From assembly GCF_030730945.1 (NCBI RefSeq), contig NZ_JAVAMS010000001.1, positions 992,001-1,056,000 of the forward strand: DNA of 64,000 nt, in the 5' to 3' direction. The position numbers and the translations under genes were made by a program. Under the pieces are notes generated by a model that was not told where the DNA came from, searched no databases, and saw only the letters and a list, made by a program, of their open reading frames with translations. This document shows positions 27,620-52,096 of the stretch, in pieces. Origin of the DNA: Aurantiacibacter poecillastricola (GTDB lineage: Bacteria > Pseudomonadota > Alphaproteobacteria > Sphingomonadales > Sphingomonadaceae). The first letter of the stretch is position 1; each line of letters opens with the position of its first letter.

Positions 27620-28048
27620 ATGACCACCGACATCGTGATCTACCACAACCCCGAATGCGGCACCTCGCGCAACACGCTGGCGATGATCCGCAACGCCGGG
27701 TTCGAGCCGCATGTTATTGAGTATCTGAAGACGCCGCCTTCGCGCGCCATGCTCGAAAGCCTGATCGAGCGCGCTGGGCCCACCCCCCGTGCGCTGTTGC
27801 GTGAAAAGGGCACGCCATATGCCGAACTGGGCCTCGGCGATGAGAGCCTGAGCGATACAGCGCTGGTGGACGCGATGATGGAGCACCCGGTCCTGATCAA
27901 CCGTCCAGTTGTCGTCTCCCCGCTCGGCGTCCGCCTGTGCCGTCCGTCAGAGGCGGTGCTCGACATTCTGCCAAGCCCCCAGCTGGGCGCCTTCACCAAG
28001 GAAGACGGCGAGCAGGTCGTGGACGCGCCGGGCGAACGTATCGCCTGA
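27620..28048 (+). CDS. arsC: Arsenate reductase, glutaredoxin-linked ArsC/Spx-fold type
   Basis: 142-aa thioredoxin-fold reductase with the catalytic [12 protein letters not shown] motif (Cys about residue 13) and the Arg-containing LRPVV-like stretch ([11 protein letters not shown]). This E. coli plasmid-type ArsC uses glutathione/glutaredoxin, whereas the preceding gene uses a different scaffold and usually thioredoxin. Stop and arsB start overlap as TGATG. Confidence 0.92.
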
Positions 28049-29334
28049 TGCTGCTTGCGGTTGCAATTTTCGTGGTCACCATCACGATGGTGATCTGGCA
28101 GCCGCGCGGGCTCGGCATCGGGTGGAGCGCGATCGGCGGAGCGCTGCTCGCCCTTGCCACCGGCGTCATCTCGCTCGCCGACATCCCGGTGGTGTGGAAC
28201 ATCATCTGGAACGCCACCGGCGCCTTCGTCGCGGTGATCCTGATCAGCTTGATCCTCGATCGTGCCGGGTTCTTCGAATGGGCTGCGCTCCATGTGGCGC
28301 GGTGGGGGCGCGGCGACGGTCGCTGGCTATTCGTGCTCGTGGTATTGCTGGGTGCAGGTGTTGCCGCGATCTTCGCCAATGATGGCGCGGCGCTGATCCT
28401 GACCCCGATCGTGATCGCGATGCTCCGGGCGCTGGGATACAACGCCAAAGCGACGCTGGCTTTCGTCATGGCGGCAGGGTTCATTGCCGATACGTCGAGC
28501 CTGCCGCTGGTCGTGTCGAACCTCGTCAATATCGTCTCGGCGGACTTCTTCGATATCGGGTTCGGCGAGTATGCGCTGGTCATGGTGCCAGTCGACCTGG
28601 CGGCTATCGTGGCTACGCTGGCAGCGCTGCTGCTGTTCTTCCGCAAGGACATTCCGACCAGCTACGACGTCGCACAGCTCCGCGCTCCGGCAGAAGCGAT
28701 CCATGACCGAGCGACCTTCCGCGCCGGCTGGGTGGTGCTGGCCCTGCTGCTGATCGGTTTTTTCGTTCTCGATCCTCTTGGCGTGCCGATCAGCGCGGTC
28801 GCTGCCGTCGGCGCGCTGGCGCTCATCGCGATAGCTGCGCGCGGCCACGTCATCCCTACGGGCCAGGTGATCCGCGAAGCGCCCTGGCAGGTCGTGATCT
28901 TCTCGCTCGGCATGTATCTGGTCGTCTACGGCATGAGCAATGCGGGGCTTGCCACTGCGATCGCCGGGGTGCTGGAGCGCTCGGCCGAGGGCGGCATATG
29001 GGGTGCGGCCTTCGGAACGGGCATTCTGTCCGCGGTGCTATCCTCGGGCATGAACAACATGCCGACCGTCCTCGTCGGCGCGCTGTCGATCGATGCCACG
29101 AGTGCCACCGGCCCGGTTCGTGACGCCATGATCTACGCCAACGTCATCGGCTGCGACCTCGGGCCAAAGATCACGCCGATCGGTTCGCTCGCGACCCTGC
29201 TGTGGCTGCATGTGCTGGGACAGAAGGACGTGAAGATCGGCTGGGGCTATTACTTCCGCGTCGGCATCACACTGACCACGCCGATCCTGCTGGTAACCCT
29301 GGCCGCCCTCGCACTGCGATTGAGCCTCGCATGA
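28048..29334 (+). CDS. arsB: Arsenite efflux permease ArsB
   Basis: 428-aa polytopic membrane protein of the ArsB family that expels As(III)/Sb(III). About a dozen helices are evident, with conserved segments [39 protein letters not shown] and the C-terminal [12 protein letters not shown] 28048 overlaps the arsC stop; an upstream in-frame extension is a shadow of arsC. Its own stop overlaps the next ATG (ATGA). Confidence 0.94.
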
Positions 29335-29654
29335 AGCTGTTCCTCGTCTATCCGCTCGCGGCGCTGTTCGAAATCGCCGGTTGCTTCGCATTCTGGGCAT
29401 GGTGGCGGCTGGAGAAGAGCCCCTTGTGGCTGCTGCCCGGAATGGTGTCGCTGGCCCTGTTCGCCTGGCTGCTGACTCTCGTGCCGACCGACGCTGCCGG
29501 TCGCGCCTTCGCAGCCTATGGCGGGGTCTATGTTGCCGCGTCGCTCCTGTGGCTGTGGACTGTCGAAGGCACCACCCCCGACCGGTGGGACTTCGTCGGC
29601 GGCGCGGTCGTGCTCGCCGGCGCTGCCATCATCCTGTTCGGCCCCCGCGGCTGA
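29331..29654 (+). CDS. YnfA/UPF0060 family small membrane protein
   Basis: 107-aa four-helix protein of the YnfA family ([53 protein letters not shown]). Related to small-multidrug-resistance transporters and often found in ars operons; function there is unproven. It is coupled to arsB by ATGA. Confidence 0.88.
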
Positions 29655-29677
29655 CGACCCAAATTTGGAGAATTTCC

Positions 29678-30418
29678 TTGTCCCGTCTGCGACCCTTGCC
29701 CGATCCCGACAGCTTTCCGGCGCTCGACCCCGCCTTCATCCATGCCCGCCCTGCCGAAGGTCTCGGTGCCGACCAGCCACCGCCGCGCATCCTGTTGCTC
29801 TACGGTTCTCTGCGGGAGCGCTCGTATTCGCGCCTCGCGGTCGAGGAAGCTGCTCGCTTGCTCCAGCTGTTCGGCGCGGAGACGCGCATCTTCGATCCCT
29901 CCGACCTGCCGCTACCCGATCAGGTGGGTGGCGATGACCATCCCGCCGTCCACGAACTGCGCGAGCATGCCTTCTGGTCCGAGGGCATGGTGTGGTGCAG
30001 CCCCGAAAGGCACGGCCAGATCACGGGCATAATGAAGACACAGATCGATCATCTGCCGCTTAGTATCGGAGGCATGCGACCGACCCAGGGGCGGACCCTT
30101 GCGGTCATGCAGGTATCTGCCGGCTCGCAGTCGTTCAACACCGTCAATACACTGCGGCTGCTTGGGCGCTGGATGCGGATGTTTACCATCCCGAACCAGT
30201 CCAGCGTGCCAAAGGCATACGAGGAGTTCGACGAGGCTGGCCGCATGAAACCCTCCTCGCTCTACGATCGGATCGTGGACGTCATGGAGGAACTGGTCCG
30301 CTTCACAGTCCTGCTGCGCCCGCATGCCAAGCAGCTCGTGGACCGATATTCGGAGCGCAAGGAGTCCGGGCGCGTCATCGATTCTAAGACGGATATATCC
30401 TCGATCGCCTTATCTTGA
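29678..30418 (+). CDS. arsH: ArsH, NADPH-dependent FMN reductase / organoarsenical oxidase
   Basis: 246-aa flavodoxin-like enzyme that in other bacteria oxidises trivalent organoarsenicals and reduces quinones or metals. Family motifs: [40 protein letters not shown], and [28 protein letters not shown]. The start is TTG 29678 with GGAG seven bases upstream; no ATG fits. It is the last gene of the arsR-arsC-arsC-arsB-ynfA-arsH unit. Confidence 0.92.
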
Positions 30419-30490
30419 TCGTAATGACCGCCTATGGGCGTGCGACGCGATGGCCCCAGAGACTGAAACGGGGCGCATTGCCGAACTGCT

Positions 30491-30563
30491 GAAATTGGGC
30501 CGGTAACGGACGGTCCGCTATCCGAACCACGACGCGAAAAGCTGTCAATCGGCTAACGACCCC
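30491..30563 (+). repeat. Dispersed intergenic repeat, copy R2, left part (interrupted by the IS110 element)
   Basis: GAAATTGGGCCGG, GGACGGTCCGCT, and CGGCTAACGACCCC match the family order. The expected end of the repeat, CAATTGCGGACGAA, appears at 31917-31930 on the other side of the IS, so the element sits inside the repeat. Confidence 0.75.
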
Positions 30564-30589
30564 TGTGTGGACGGCTCTCCGTTGGCAAG

Positions 30590-30790
30590 GGTTAGTTTGA
30601 ACTTAGCGTAGCGTGTTGAGGCGCCCATGTGTCCGGCCTTTGTGTGCGGTTCACATGGACCGCTGGCCTTGATGCCTTTCGCGCGGTTCAGGTCCCTGTC
30701 CAATTGCACGCACTTCAAAGTGCTCGGGTCGTTCGGGTTGTCCTGCTCCGGCGGTTTCAACCGGCTTGTTGCGTCAGTTCATTCATGCCC
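30590..30790 (-). ncRNA. Predicted bridge RNA of the IS110-type element
   Basis: Downstream of the transposase, on the same strand, the sequence reads AACGACCC (complement of 30726-30733), a hairpin GCACTTTGAAGTGC (complement of 30710-30723), then GCAATTG (complement of 30701-30707). AACGACCC equals the left flank and GCAATTG is complementary to CAATTGC of the right flank. This fits the two-guide target loop of IS110 bridge RNAs. A second stem (CCATGTG 30625-30631 / CACATGG 30652-30658) could be the donor loop. Ends of the RNA are not defined. Confidence 0.5.
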
Positions 30791-30825
30791 TTTCCAACTC
30801 TGGTAGCGCCACCGGGCGCGTGTCT

Positions 30826-31848
30826 TCAGGCGGCCTGCATCTCGCGATAGCTCTCGCCTCTTGTCATCATTGCCCAGATGATCCGGGCGTTCTTGTTCGC
30901 CAGTGCCACCGCGGCCACCTTGGGCTTCTTGCGTTCGAGCAGCTGTCCCAGCCAGGGCCGCTTGGCGCTGCTGCGCTGCGCATGGCGCACGACCGCCATC
31001 GCGCCCACCACCAGCAGCTCGCGCAGGTAGGTGTTGCCCGCCTTGGTGATCGAGCCAAGCCGCTCCTTGCCGCCGCTCGAGTTCTGACGCGGGGTGAGCC
31101 CGATCCACGCCGACAGGCTCCTGCCATTGGAGAACATCGCCGGGTCAGCGACCGAGGCAAGGATCGCGCTGGCGAGCAGAGGTCCGATCCCCGGGATCTT
31201 CATCAAGCGGCGACCTGCCTCGCTCTTGCGGGCATCGGCCATGATCCGCCGGTCGTTGTCGAGGATCTGCTCCTTGACCATCTCCAGCTGGCTGGCGAGC
31301 ACGGCAAGGCTCTCGCGTGCCTGTGCGGGCAGACGGTCATCGTTGGGGCCGGCCACTACAGCGAGAAGGCGATCGAGGCCGATCCGACCGACCGGTGCCG
31401 TAATCCCGAACTCGGCGAGGTGCGCGCGCAGGGCATTGGTCAACTGCGTGCGCTGGCGGGTCAGGATCTTCCTCACCCGGTGCAGCATCATCACCGCCTG
31501 CTGCTCGGGCGTCTTCACGCCGACAAAGCGCATGGTGGGCCGGGTTACCGCCTCGCAGATCGCCTCGGCATCGGCGGCATCGTTCTTGCCGCGCTTGAGA
31601 TAGGGCTTCACATACTGGGCCGGCATCAGCTTCACCTCGTGGCCCAGCGCCATCAGCTGTCTGGCCCAGTGATGCGAGGAGGAACACGCCTCCATCCCCA
31701 CCAGACACGGCGGCAGCTTTGCAAACAGCTTCACGAACTGACCCCGCGAGACGCGCCTGCACAGTACCACCGCGCCGCTCTCGTCTACCCCGTGCATCTG
31801 GAAAACCGACTTCGCCAGGTCCACGCCTACTACCGCAACTGTCTCCAT
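30826..31848 (-). CDS. IS110-family DEDD transposase/recombinase
   Basis: 340-aa recombinase. The N-terminal RuvC-like DEDD domain has VGVDLAKSVFQMHGVD (first Asp), CLVGMEACSSSHHWA (Glu) and RGKNDAADAEAICEA (last Asp pair). The C-terminal domain has the MKIPGIGPLLASAIL helix-hairpin region and SLSAWIGLTPRQNSSGGKERLGSITKAG around the catalytic Ser. ATG 31848 has AGGAG upstream; eight more upstream codons are open but unlikely. Intact and possibly active. Confidence 0.93.
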   Translation of the reverse strand: METVAVVGVDLAKSVFQMHGVDESGAVVLCRRVSRGQFVKLFAKLPPCLVGMEACSSSHHWARQLMALGHEVKLMPAQYVKPYLKRGKNDAADAEAICEAVTRPTMRFVGVKTPEQQAVMMLHRVRKILTRQRTQLTNALRAHLAEFGITAPVGRIGLDRLLAVVAGPNDDRLPAQARESLAVLASQLEMVKEQILDNDRRIMADARKSEAGRRLMKIPGIGPLLASAILASVADPAMFSNGRSLSAWIGLTPRQNSSGGKERLGSITKAGNTYLRELLVVGAMAVVRHAQRSSAKRPWLGQLLERKKPKVAAVALANKNARIIWAMMTRGESYREMQAA

Positions 31849-31912
31849 CTTCGCTCTCCTTTTCCGACTCACTCGAGGGAATTATCCCCCAAGGGATGGA
31901 GAGCCGTCCACG

Positions 31913-32017
31913 GCAACAATTGCGGACGAAATTCGATCTCGATAATCTGCCAAAAGCCGGACATAGATAAACGCTTGGTAAGTGGGCGGAGGCCTCGCAA
32001 GGAAAGTCATCAACTCA
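31913..32017. other. Right flank of the IS110 element
   Basis: Holds the right end of repeat R2 (CAATTGCGGACGAA from 31917) followed by a short spacer to the next gene; AAGGAAAG at about 31999 may be its ribosome site. Confidence 0.45.
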
Positions 32018-32833: not shown

Positions 32834-34272
32834 GGTTCGTGGACAAACCTTGCATACCAGCAATCTGTCGGTAAGTGCGGAGAGTGATCAATTAACTTTC
32901 GTGGAGATAATCGAGTGCGTGCAACCTATTTCCTCATAGCTTCCTCTATATTGTTGGCAGCCTGTGGGCAATCAACGGATTCAACGGCATCGCGAAATGG
33001 CACGGAGCAAGTTCCGAGCCAATCGGTGCCCACTGCGAGCGAGAACGATGGGAATTGGTCCTTACTTAGCGAGTATGTCGGTCAGCATCCCGTGGATAGC
33101 AGGCTCTATGACGAAAGCCCGATAGCGCCCGAGCTCAGGAACCTTCTCGACGACAAGCTGAACGTGCTGATGCAGAACAGCGAGACAGCCGCTCCCTTGC
33201 AACGCGATGGCGAAGTTTTCTTCACGTCGGGCAACAAGGATAATGAGGGGGGTAGCGACGCATTCTATCTGCTTGTCGATCCGTCAGCCAAGGCAGTCGA
33301 GGTCGGCCTTTGGGAAAACGGAGAGTTGACCGTTTATAAGACCCCAGGTTCCGACATTCTGAAACCAACGGATATCCAGACGACAATATCGAACGCGGAG
33401 ATGTAAACGTCGCTGTGGCCCGGCAGGGACGGCCAGCAATCCTTGACGCGTTACCGATCCACTGATTCAAGGCTGGCTTTTGGAGGCGGCCTTGGGCGAA
33501 CGGATTGGCGTTACGGACGAAGAATGGGAAGTGATCGGGCCGCTGCTGCCGTCTGAGCGTGGTCGCGGATGCCGCCCGGCGCAGGATAATCGTCCCTATT
33601 TCGAAGGCATGATGTGGACCGCGCGGACCGGCGCGCAGTGGCGACACTTGCCGGACGAATATGGCAAGTGGAACAGCGTGTTCCGACGTTATCGACGATG
33701 GGTCACGACCGGTGTGTTCGATGCCATGCTCGAGACACTGGCCGAACTGGCGGGGCGGCATACAGCCGCCGACATGATCGACAGCACGGTGGTCCGGGCA
33801 CATCATTGTGCTGTCGGTATAAAAAGGGGACTCAGCAAACCGAGGCGCTTGGCCGATCGCGAGGCGGCTTCACGACAAAGCTCCATGCCAGATGCGATGC
33901 CCGAGGTCTCCCGCTAGGGTTCGTTCTGACACCTGGACAGGCGCACGATGTGCAGGGCTTCGCTCCACTGTTCCGCATGATAACCGACCGGATCGAGGCC
34001 TTCCTGGCTGATCGGGGCTACGATGCCGATGCGATCCGCAAGGAGATCGAGGCAGCCGGTGCGGAAGCGGTGATCCCGGCTAAGGTCAACCGGCGCAATC
34101 CCGCCCCGCACGACCGCACCAAATACAAATGGCGCAACCTCATCGAGCGTTTGTTCAACAAACTCAAGAACTGGCGCAGAGTGGCAACCCGCTACGACAA
34201 AACCAAGGAGTCCTACCTCGGCTTCGTCGCGCTCGCTTCAGTCAAACTGTGGATACCCTTTGTCCACGAAGC
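32834..34272 (+). mobile_element. IS5-family element carrying a passenger lipoprotein gene
   Basis: 1439 bp. The left end GGTTCGTGGACAAACC (32834-32849) and the complement of the right end, GCTTCGTGGACAAAGG (34257-34272), form an inverted repeat with 12 uninterrupted matches in TTCGTGGACAAA. Both sides carry CTAG (32830-32833, 34273-34276), a 4-bp duplication fitting the YTAR target of IS5. Inside are a lipoprotein gene and a two-frame transposase. Ordinary IS5-type elements are usually about 0.8-1.3 kb without passengers. Confidence 0.75.
32915..33406 (+). CDS. Hypothetical lipoprotein inside the IS5-type element
   Basis: 163 aa with GTG start and lipoprotein signal ([14 protein letters not shown], Cys 17). 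A Ser/Thr/Asn-rich linker is followed by a compact soluble domain ([24 protein letters not shown]...[18 protein letters not shown]). No family is recognised. It lies between the element's left inverted repeat and its transposase, so it appears to be a passenger. Confidence 0.7.
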
Positions 34273-34276
34273 CTAG
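33480..34276 (+). CDS. IS5-family transposase in two frames (probable -1 frameshift)
   Basis: Frame A (33480-33917) carries the N-terminal DUF4096-type domain (LPSERGRGCRPAQDNRPYFEGMMW...GAQWRHLP) and first catalytic Asp (MIDSTVVRAHH). Frame B continues from about 33821 with RSRGGFTTKLHARCD, second Asp (LADRGYDAD) and Glu (IERLFNKLKNWRRVATRYDK). The switch coincides with the slippery run AAAAAGGGG at 33821-33829, so a programmed -1 frameshift as in the IS427 group is likely, not decay. The final stop TAG (34274-34276) is part of the duplicated target CTAG, outside the element itself. Confidence 0.82.
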
Positions 34277-34297
34277 CGACCCCAATTGCGGGCGTTC
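34273..34297 (+). repeat. Dispersed intergenic repeat, copy R4, right part
   Basis: CTAGCGACCCCAATTGCGG continues the repeat that was cut at 32833. Joined across the element it would read ...TTCGGCTAGCGACCCCAATTGC, close to the sequence targeted by the IS110 element at R2. Confidence 0.72.
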
Positions 34298-42328: not shown

Positions 42329-42416
42329 CTGAAACTGGGCCGTTTGCGGAACGTCCGCTTCTGGTGATCGACCGGGGCGAAGCGGACCTTCGGCTCCCGA
42401 CCCCATTGTGGACATA
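42329..42416 (+). repeat. Dispersed intergenic repeat, copy R5
   Basis: CTGAAACTGGGCCGTTTGCGG, AACGTCCGCTTCTGG, AAGCGGACCTTCGGC and CCGACCCCATTGTGGACAT follow the family order. It marks the boundary between the IS3/protease module and the TfoX-MAPEG-HxlR module. Confidence 0.75.
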
Positions 42417-51678: not shown

Positions 51679-52096
51679 CGTTGTTTGCATGCATTTCGCA
51701 AACGGTCGTTACATCGAGCCAGATGAAAACCATGTTCCTTGCGAACCATTTCAGTTCATAAGTGACCGCAGCTTCGGAATATCGTGCGGGAACCCCAACA
51801 GCAGCTACCACAACTCAATCTAATTGCTTGCGTGGCCGGAACTAAAGCGCGCTTTGTTGTCTTCAACATCATGAACGAATGACCGCTTTTGGACAGTCCG
51901 AGCAACCGCTGGAAAGACCAAGTTGAGGGCGCATTGCCGACCGGCGGAAATTGGGCCGTAAGCCGCCTGTCCGGTTTTGGGATTGAAACCGCGGGAAGCG
52001 GCCGTTCAGCAAACGACCCCATTGCGGACGATGATCATATATTGCCTTGATCGTCAAAACCGACAGGAGCACCATCTCTCACCAAGGAGAGGTGAT
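51679..52096. other. Gene-free region with repeat R8
   Basis: About 420 bp. Holds the best-preserved repeat copy (51946-52030), preceded by an inverted half-copy (GAATGACCGCTTTTGGACAG near 51877-51896). No credible gene. The last 60 bp form the leader of the VOC gene. Confidence 0.55.
51946..52030 (+). repeat. Dispersed intergenic repeat, copy R8 (best preserved)
   Basis: 85 bp reading in order GGAAATTGGGCCGTAAGC, CGCCTGTCCGGTTTTGGG, AAACCGCGGGAAGCGGCC, GTTCAGCAAACGACCCC, ATTGCGGACG. Used as the reference for the family. Confidence 0.78.

Follow-up and report, generated by a model that had tools for sequence, protein, structure and literature searches.

The 64,000-nucleotide stretch of Aurantiacibacter poecillastricola DNA analyzed here, referred to below as the window, contains a transposase gene within a repeat that is found uninterrupted elsewhere in the same window. 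The question raised by this locus is whether the element itself carries the address of the place in which it sits. The initial annotation had proposed an IS110/IS1111-type element at 30564-31930 with a putative bridge RNA spelling out its own insertion site. Our analysis of the sequence indicates, with little room for doubt, that this is a single-copy insertion sequence of the IS1111 group, with a downstream non-coding end that holds guides to its own insertion site.

The transposase/recombinase gene lies on the minus strand (30826-31872, GTG start as listed) and encodes a protein of 348 residues in which the Pfam domains PF01548 (DEDD_Tnp_IS110) and PF02371 (Transposase_20) both scored above cut-off. 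The same protein matched NCBIfam NF033542, "IS110 family RNA-guided transposase", with 356.3 bits against a cut-off of 140, and contains the motif G--P----SG as GLTPRQNSSG. A sequence search of solved structures returned two chains, the transposases of ISCro4 and IS621. The gene is followed by 262 nt of non-coding DNA and preceded by 46 nt, as in the IS1111 layout; the layout of the IS110 group (IS621-like), with the RNA upstream and the bottom-strand match 5' of the top-strand match, was not found. Subterminal inverted repeats (sTIRs) of 14 bp, 100% identical to each other, lie at the transposase-upstream end (GTGGACGGCTCTCC, 31898-31911, minus strand) and at the non-coding downstream end (GGAGAGCCGTCCAC, 30567-30580, minus strand), and this length is within the 7-17 bp given for the IS1111 group in the accessible text of PMC11208160. 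A promoter-like site on the minus strand (TGGACG, 18 nt, GATAAT; 31881-31910), recognized by its match to consensus, overlaps the upstream sTIR. Beside the element, at 27620-30418, are arsenic resistance genes, named as arsC, an arsenic transporter, YnfA, and ArsH from the annotation of similar plasmid regions.

The exact ends of the element determine what the empty site would have looked like. IS1111-group elements extend 3 nt beyond the downstream sTIR, and at the window element these bases are ACA (30564-30566, minus strand). The same ACA ended all 23 aligned sequences, a count made without L102, whose right end is altered or was misassigned. L102 (G320:C1:5087941-5088963) is one of five copies in the genome G320, and either its right sTIR is altered or missing or its end was misplaced in our scan. 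IS1111 elements also have a 7-nt extension beyond the upstream sTIR (PMC11187229), which here reads TGTTGCC with the T-G core first (31912-31918, minus strand). Among the relatives this extension was mostly TGNTGNC, and began with T in 31 of 32 rows, L103 having C. From the ends of the relatives and the 7/3 pattern of the IS1111 group, the window element is therefore assigned to 30564-31918 on the minus strand, a length of 1355 bp. The end at 31930, with a right flank starting from 31917, had thus been misplaced in the initial annotation; the IS1111 end pattern puts the end at 31918, rather than at 31916 or 31930, and makes bases 31917-31918 part of the element rather than of the flank.

Since 31917-31918 belong to the element, the joined site becomes AACGACCCCATTGC and not AACGACCCCAATTGC, the empty site proposed earlier, which has one A too many. 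The latter would imply an element of 1354 bp with a 6/3 end, and was rejected in view of the nearly constant first T of the upstream extension. When joined, the flanks give AACGACCCC/ATTGCGGACGAA, with target halves of GTCCGCAAT and GGGGTCG. Two near-identical elements share the upstream T but disagree in the first base of their right flank, G in the window and T at the locus L017, so that this flank base is most likely part of the site. The empty site is accordingly best read as AACGACCCC/ATTGCGGACG, though a third form, CGACCCAATTGC, in which the core TG is contributed by the target, is conceivable.

Comparison with uninterrupted DNA was made at several places. An uninterrupted repeat copy within the window (52012-52031) matches the joined flanks, as corrected, at all of 20 nt. 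Another copy, R4 (CGACCCCAATTGC, 34277-34289), had been put forward as evidence for the empty site and was set aside, as it has an extra A at the junction and adjoins the end of an IS5-type transposase gene. That gene, at 33462-34276, is listed as two overlapping frames (33480-33917 and 33614-34276) and ends where R4 begins. An orthologous empty site for the window's insertion was not found in the 39 other genomes of the genus, and in the genome G014 (L076) the site of L017 was matched on the right side only, giving no clean empty site.

A clean empty site was obtained for L093, an element on a Sphingobium yanoikuyae plasmid with 72% protein identity to the window transposase. The plasmids pSWIT01 of Rhizorhabdus wittichii RW1 and pSAMIE_2 of Sphingobium amiense carry the L093 site without the element and with 100% identical flanks, and three more plasmids carry it with flanks that are less similar. 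The L093 insert is 1354 bp, and its sole ambiguity is a dinucleotide TG located exactly at the guide junction; the sequence GAAAT-TG-GAGCG was therefore split without duplication. Insertion without target duplication is thus observed for L093, and the window insertion has only the 20-nt identical repeat copy for comparison.

The guides themselves are found in the downstream end, which on the transposase strand reads AACGACCC, then a hairpin, then GCAATTGG. Read in transposase orientation, the top strand of the right flank, GGGGTCGTT, is complementary to guide 1 (AACGACCC, 30726-30733, minus strand), the pairing starting at the second base of the flank. The hairpin between the guides is GCACTTTGAAGTGC (30710-30723, minus strand), in which an A-U pair is replaced by G-C in 6 of 23 aligned sequences. 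Guide 2 (GCAAT, 30703-30707, minus strand) is continued by UGG to 30700, so that GCAATTGG occupies 30700-30707; it is the same as the last bases of the left flank, GCAAT, and hence would pair with the bottom strand. The strings quoted in the initial annotation all lie at the places claimed, for example AACGACCCC at 30555-30563 and CAATTGC at 31917-31923 of the plus strand. That annotation had likened the pairing to that of IS110 target loops. The pairing itself held, but the order did not: on the transposase strand the guides follow the IS1111 order, the reverse of IS110, and the wrong order had been named because the earlier reading used the plus strand of the window. In the IS1111 elements tested previously, the top-strand match is 5' of the bottom-strand match, and the order is reversed in the IS110 element ISEc21 (PMC11187229).

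We then asked how often a match of this kind arises by chance, requiring an exact 5-nt guide 2 and 8/8 positions of guide 1 in the right order and spacing. The match at the window was reached by 16 of 20,000 dinucleotide-shuffled non-coding ends (223 if guide 1 matched at least 7/8) and, when random window sites took the place of the flanks, by 4 of 20,000 (98 with guide 1 at least 7/8). These figures are somewhat favorable, because the junction, guide lengths, and order were fixed from data already seen.

The related elements provided further evidence. Of 35 related loci examined, 32 yielded guides and flanks, with L038, L095, and L098 giving no row since an end was missing in the scan, and 25 were counted. 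The seven rows dropped were L019, L099, and L107, which represent the same insertions as L018, L092, and L096; L102, whose right end is not intact or was misassigned; L004, whose left flank is cut; and L010 and L013, with right flanks of 7 nt only. For the count, seven element copies were taken from plasmids, among the 60 records listed of 977 plasmid records with a match; 26 distant loci, as well as L121 and L122, were left out. A scan of viral contigs produced one weak match.

Across 16 distinct guide pairs, 278 of 325 positions matched the element's own flanks, compared to a mean of 201.1 when guides were reassigned at random, and none of 20,000 permutations reached 278. Two registers were permitted for guide 1, and equally so in the permuted sets. 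With one representative of each of 12 guide types, none of 200,000 permutations reached the observed value. Guide 2 and the left flank changed together as GCAAC/GCAAC (L021), GCAAG/GCAAG (L092), GAAAT/GAAAT (L093), GAGAA/GAGAA (L097), and GGGAT/GGGAT (L110 and L111); guide 1 and the right flank did so as CGCCCC with GGGGCG (L101), TGGGGCCG with CGGCCCCA (L094), and TGACCCA with TGGGTCA (L110). This covariation supports the earlier proposal that the non-coding region of the element, with its putative RNA, carries guides to its own insertion site. Copies having the same loop behaved as that proposal had anticipated, with L017 and L018 sharing the target apart from a single wobble base, the first base of the core, and outer bases. 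Copies at other targets had different loops as well, and no case of the same loop with unrelated flanks was seen.

The matches were not spread evenly over the guides. Guide 2 matched at positions 1 and 2 in all 25 copies, at position 4 in 24, at position 3 in 21, and at position 5 in 17, where 7 more had a wobble; guide 1 matched at positions 2-5 in 24 or 25 copies, at position 7 in 17, and at position 8 in 10. Imperfect pairs included guide 1 of L022 (4/8) and of L092 and L106 (5/8 each), and guide 2 of L094 (3/5, one wobble) and of L108 (3/5, two wobbles). Eight of the 13 differences between guide 2 and flank were U over C. Where the difference lay at a guide 2 U, the flank had C in 8 of 10 cases and A in 2, with a binomial P of 0.003 against an expectation of one third, the copies with the same guide not being fully independent. 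As the departures in guide 2 are mostly of this G-U wobble type, the guides probably tolerate wobble.

Shared ancestry offers another source of covariation, in that copies could have guides and flanks in common simply as the same insertions by descent. Such cases do exist, in the pairs L018/L019, L092/L099, and L096/L107, and one of each was dropped before the count. Outside the target, however, the counted copies differ in their left flanks, and their hosts belong to several genera; the five copies in G320, four of them counted, are at five different places. L021, from an alphaproteobacterial metagenome-assembled genome, and L092, on a Blastomonas plasmid, have identical right flanks and different left flanks, as could result if copies had recombined or if DNA next to the element had been deleted. 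With L021 left out, 1 of 200,000 permutations reached the observed value for guide 2, none for guide 1, and none for both, and we regard inheritance as a scarcely credible source of the covariation.

An element whose guides correspond to its site might nonetheless be a decayed relic, no longer mobile, in which the guides happen to be kept. A single copy was found in this genome, as a relic might leave, but the frame of 348 residues is open and the sTIRs are perfect. Moreover, the L017 element of Qipengyuania pacifica, at another place and at the same kind of target, is 98.8% identical in DNA over 1390 aligned bp, with the same guides and an RNA region of 214 nt with the same sequence as that of the window element. 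A copy so nearly identical suggests recent movement, and decay appears improbable. On its right side L017 has, at a distance of about 100 bp, a segment of some 77 bp that is conserved in many genomes of the genus and is probably a tRNA gene.

The region containing the guides is predicted to form a structured RNA. RNAalifold was applied to an alignment of 23 distinct non-coding ends, and the conserved region at 30605-30773 (minus strand), a predicted bridge RNA or seekRNA, gave a multiloop consensus with an outer stem, a target arm, and further hairpins. In the predicted target arm (30680-30753, minus strand), a stem formed by 30742-30753 with 30680-30692 leads to an internal loop that holds both guides around an apical hairpin. 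The consensus pairs 97.7% of alignment cells, compared with 26-36% for slid structures, and two-sided changes were seen in 28 cells versus 8.4 in shuffles, with none of 500 shuffles reaching 28. Two-sided change occurred in 5 of 43 pairs; 23 of 500 shuffles did at least as well, and for the count of further pair types 488 of 500 did. Support for the fold is thus taken from the cell counts and the covariation score, because the pair and pair-type counts were reached in shuffles. The single window sequence was no more stable than its own shuffles (z -0.25), and a scan of the window against Rfam at the gathering score returned no family matches.

Two further segments of this region fit the joined ends of the element, and are candidates for a donor loop. 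The first, GGCAUCA (30670-30676, minus strand; GGCAU[CU]A in the alignment), is complementary at 6 of 7 positions to the upstream end TGTTGCC; the second, ACACAUG (30626-30632, minus strand), equals the joined ends ACACA/TG and is invariant in the 23 aligned sequences. For many IS1111 members, the accessible text of PMC11208160 describes donor-binding nucleotides in the multiloop. By eye, the variable bases of the upstream end did not covary with the candidate segments. Because the segments and the ends they would read hardly vary, we infer this donor loop only as a candidate.

Examination of the target supported the statement of the initial annotation that the element sits inside a dispersed repeat, both from the copies in the window and from pattern counts across the genus. 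The interrupted copy comprises a left part at 30471-30563 and a right part, ATTGCGGACGA, at 31919-31929; an uninterrupted copy is located at 51927-52031 and a weaker one at 42329-42413. By eye, the ends of this repeat of about 100 bp (30471-30563, 42329-42413, and 51927-52031) look like inverted copies of one unit. In 40 genomes of the genus, own included, the pattern CNGCAANNGGGTCG had 289 matches versus 171 for the reversed control. Among 150 matches listed, 45 began with CCGCAAT, where about 9 would be expected from 4 of 64 variants. Fourteen uninterrupted sites were read, and about ten of them share, by eye, TCCGCAA-NN-GGGTCG followed by AGCGGA or similar.

A repeated target of this kind might be chosen through direct recognition of DNA by the protein, or through the hairpin shape that the repeat takes, with the matching bases coincidental or a captured piece of the target. 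In keeping with this, flank bases beyond the reach of guide 2 are conserved in the relatives, C at -7 in 25 of 25 left flanks and G at -9 in 21 of 25, and these bases recur, equally spaced, within the downstream end of the element itself. A perfect GTCCGC/GCGGAC stem surrounds the target at 2 of the 14 uninterrupted sites (L129 and L143), so that in terms of a REP-type sequence the dispersed repeat is present and the perfect palindrome is confined to these two. Against this, 12 guide types covary with their flanks, on opposite strands for the two guides and with 0/200,000 permutations equaling the result. A captured target piece would hardly be expected to be split around a conserved hairpin in nearly constant register across relatives, and targets with no evident stem by eye, such as those of the G320 copies, are used as well. 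Targeting by protein or shape in place of guides is thus very unlikely.

Guide-directed targeting leaves the conservation at -9 and -7 to be accounted for, whether by common descent of the sites from a single class of repeat or by a recombinase that itself reads the two bases. The five copies in G320 carry guides for GGGAT/TGGGTC. Searched for in 10 genomes, the re-targeted pattern CCGGGAYNGGGTC had 11 matches versus 31 for the reversed control, and CCGCWAYNGGCCCA had 15 versus 24, so neither was enriched. In G320 alone, CCGGGAYNGGGTC was found 3 times versus 0 for the control, and 2 of the 3 sites, which are uninterrupted, share the longer context of the sites occupied by the element; this excess is suggestive and no more. 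Distant relatives were inspected by eye for flanks resembling the sTIR of the element that they adjoin, and 25 of 26 loci gave a candidate pair of ends, the ends being uncertain. Such a resemblance was seen at L007 and partly at the G005 copies, but not at L024, L025, L028-L030, and L033.

These observations led us to a tentative proposal, which we would sooner doubt than accept, that this clade lives on a dispersed sphingomonad repeat, keeping a GTCCG-like context while its guides are retuned to each host variant. The recombinase may in addition read G at -9 and C at -7, so that targets would need to contain part of the sTIR. The absence of enrichment for the re-targeted patterns slightly lowers the odds that the guides follow the repeat. 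If the proposal were true, a fixed, protein-read part of the target code would stand beside the RNA-read part.

The mechanism that we favor follows published systems. By analogy with the work on ISEc11, ISPa11, ISKpn4, and IS621, the downstream non-coding region would be transcribed and the RNA would bind the DEDD recombinase. In the left half of the target, guide 2 (GCAAU, then UG) would pair with the bottom strand; in the right half, guide 1 would pair with the top strand. The circular form of the element would be inserted at GCAAT/NG-GGTCG with no duplication.

The IS1111 elements with a described seekRNA are ISEc11, ISPa11, ISKpn4, and ISPst6 (Siddiquee et al. 2024, PMC11187229). The window element resembles them in its downstream non-coding region, sTIR, 7-nt upstream extension, and guides for both strands, and further in guide order and natural re-direction between relatives, and its relative L093 resembles them in the lack of target duplication; like ISPa11, it has its target in a repeat (PMC11187229). 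Unlike them, it is a new element with a new target, and its RNA is predicted from sequence; the natural series is also longer here, with 12 guide types, and includes departures of the wobble type. With IS110/IS621 and its bridge RNA, as described in the accessible text of Durrant et al. 2024 (PMC11208160), it has in common the recombinase superfamily and the RNA target guides, and its candidate donor-binding part beside the multiloop is like that of many IS1111 members in the same text. It differs from IS110/IS621 in having its RNA region downstream and its guides in the reverse order, by the orders given in PMC11187229. That IS1111 elements find their targets by RNA guides, that the guides stand in this order, that relatives are naturally re-directed, and that such elements insert into repeats has been published; it is the element and its target that are new. 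Literature searches on IS1111 in Sphingomonas (target site) and IS110 in Erythrobacter returned nothing about this element by title. IS elements that insert in REP sequences were reportedly described by Tobes and Pareja in 2006 (PMC1525189). The window element likewise lies inside a dispersed repeat, a term used here more broadly than REP.

Raw sequence can thus suffice both to read the address of an IS1111 element and to check it, with no experiment needed, and its relatives amount to a natural reprogramming experiment that provides an unusually complete natural test. The relatives distinguish tight pairing, at positions 1, 2, and 4 of guide 2 and 2-5 of guide 1, from looser pairing at position 5 of guide 2 and positions 7-8 of guide 1. 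This distinction would be of use for reprogramming these recombinases and for studying the settlement of mobile elements in repeats.
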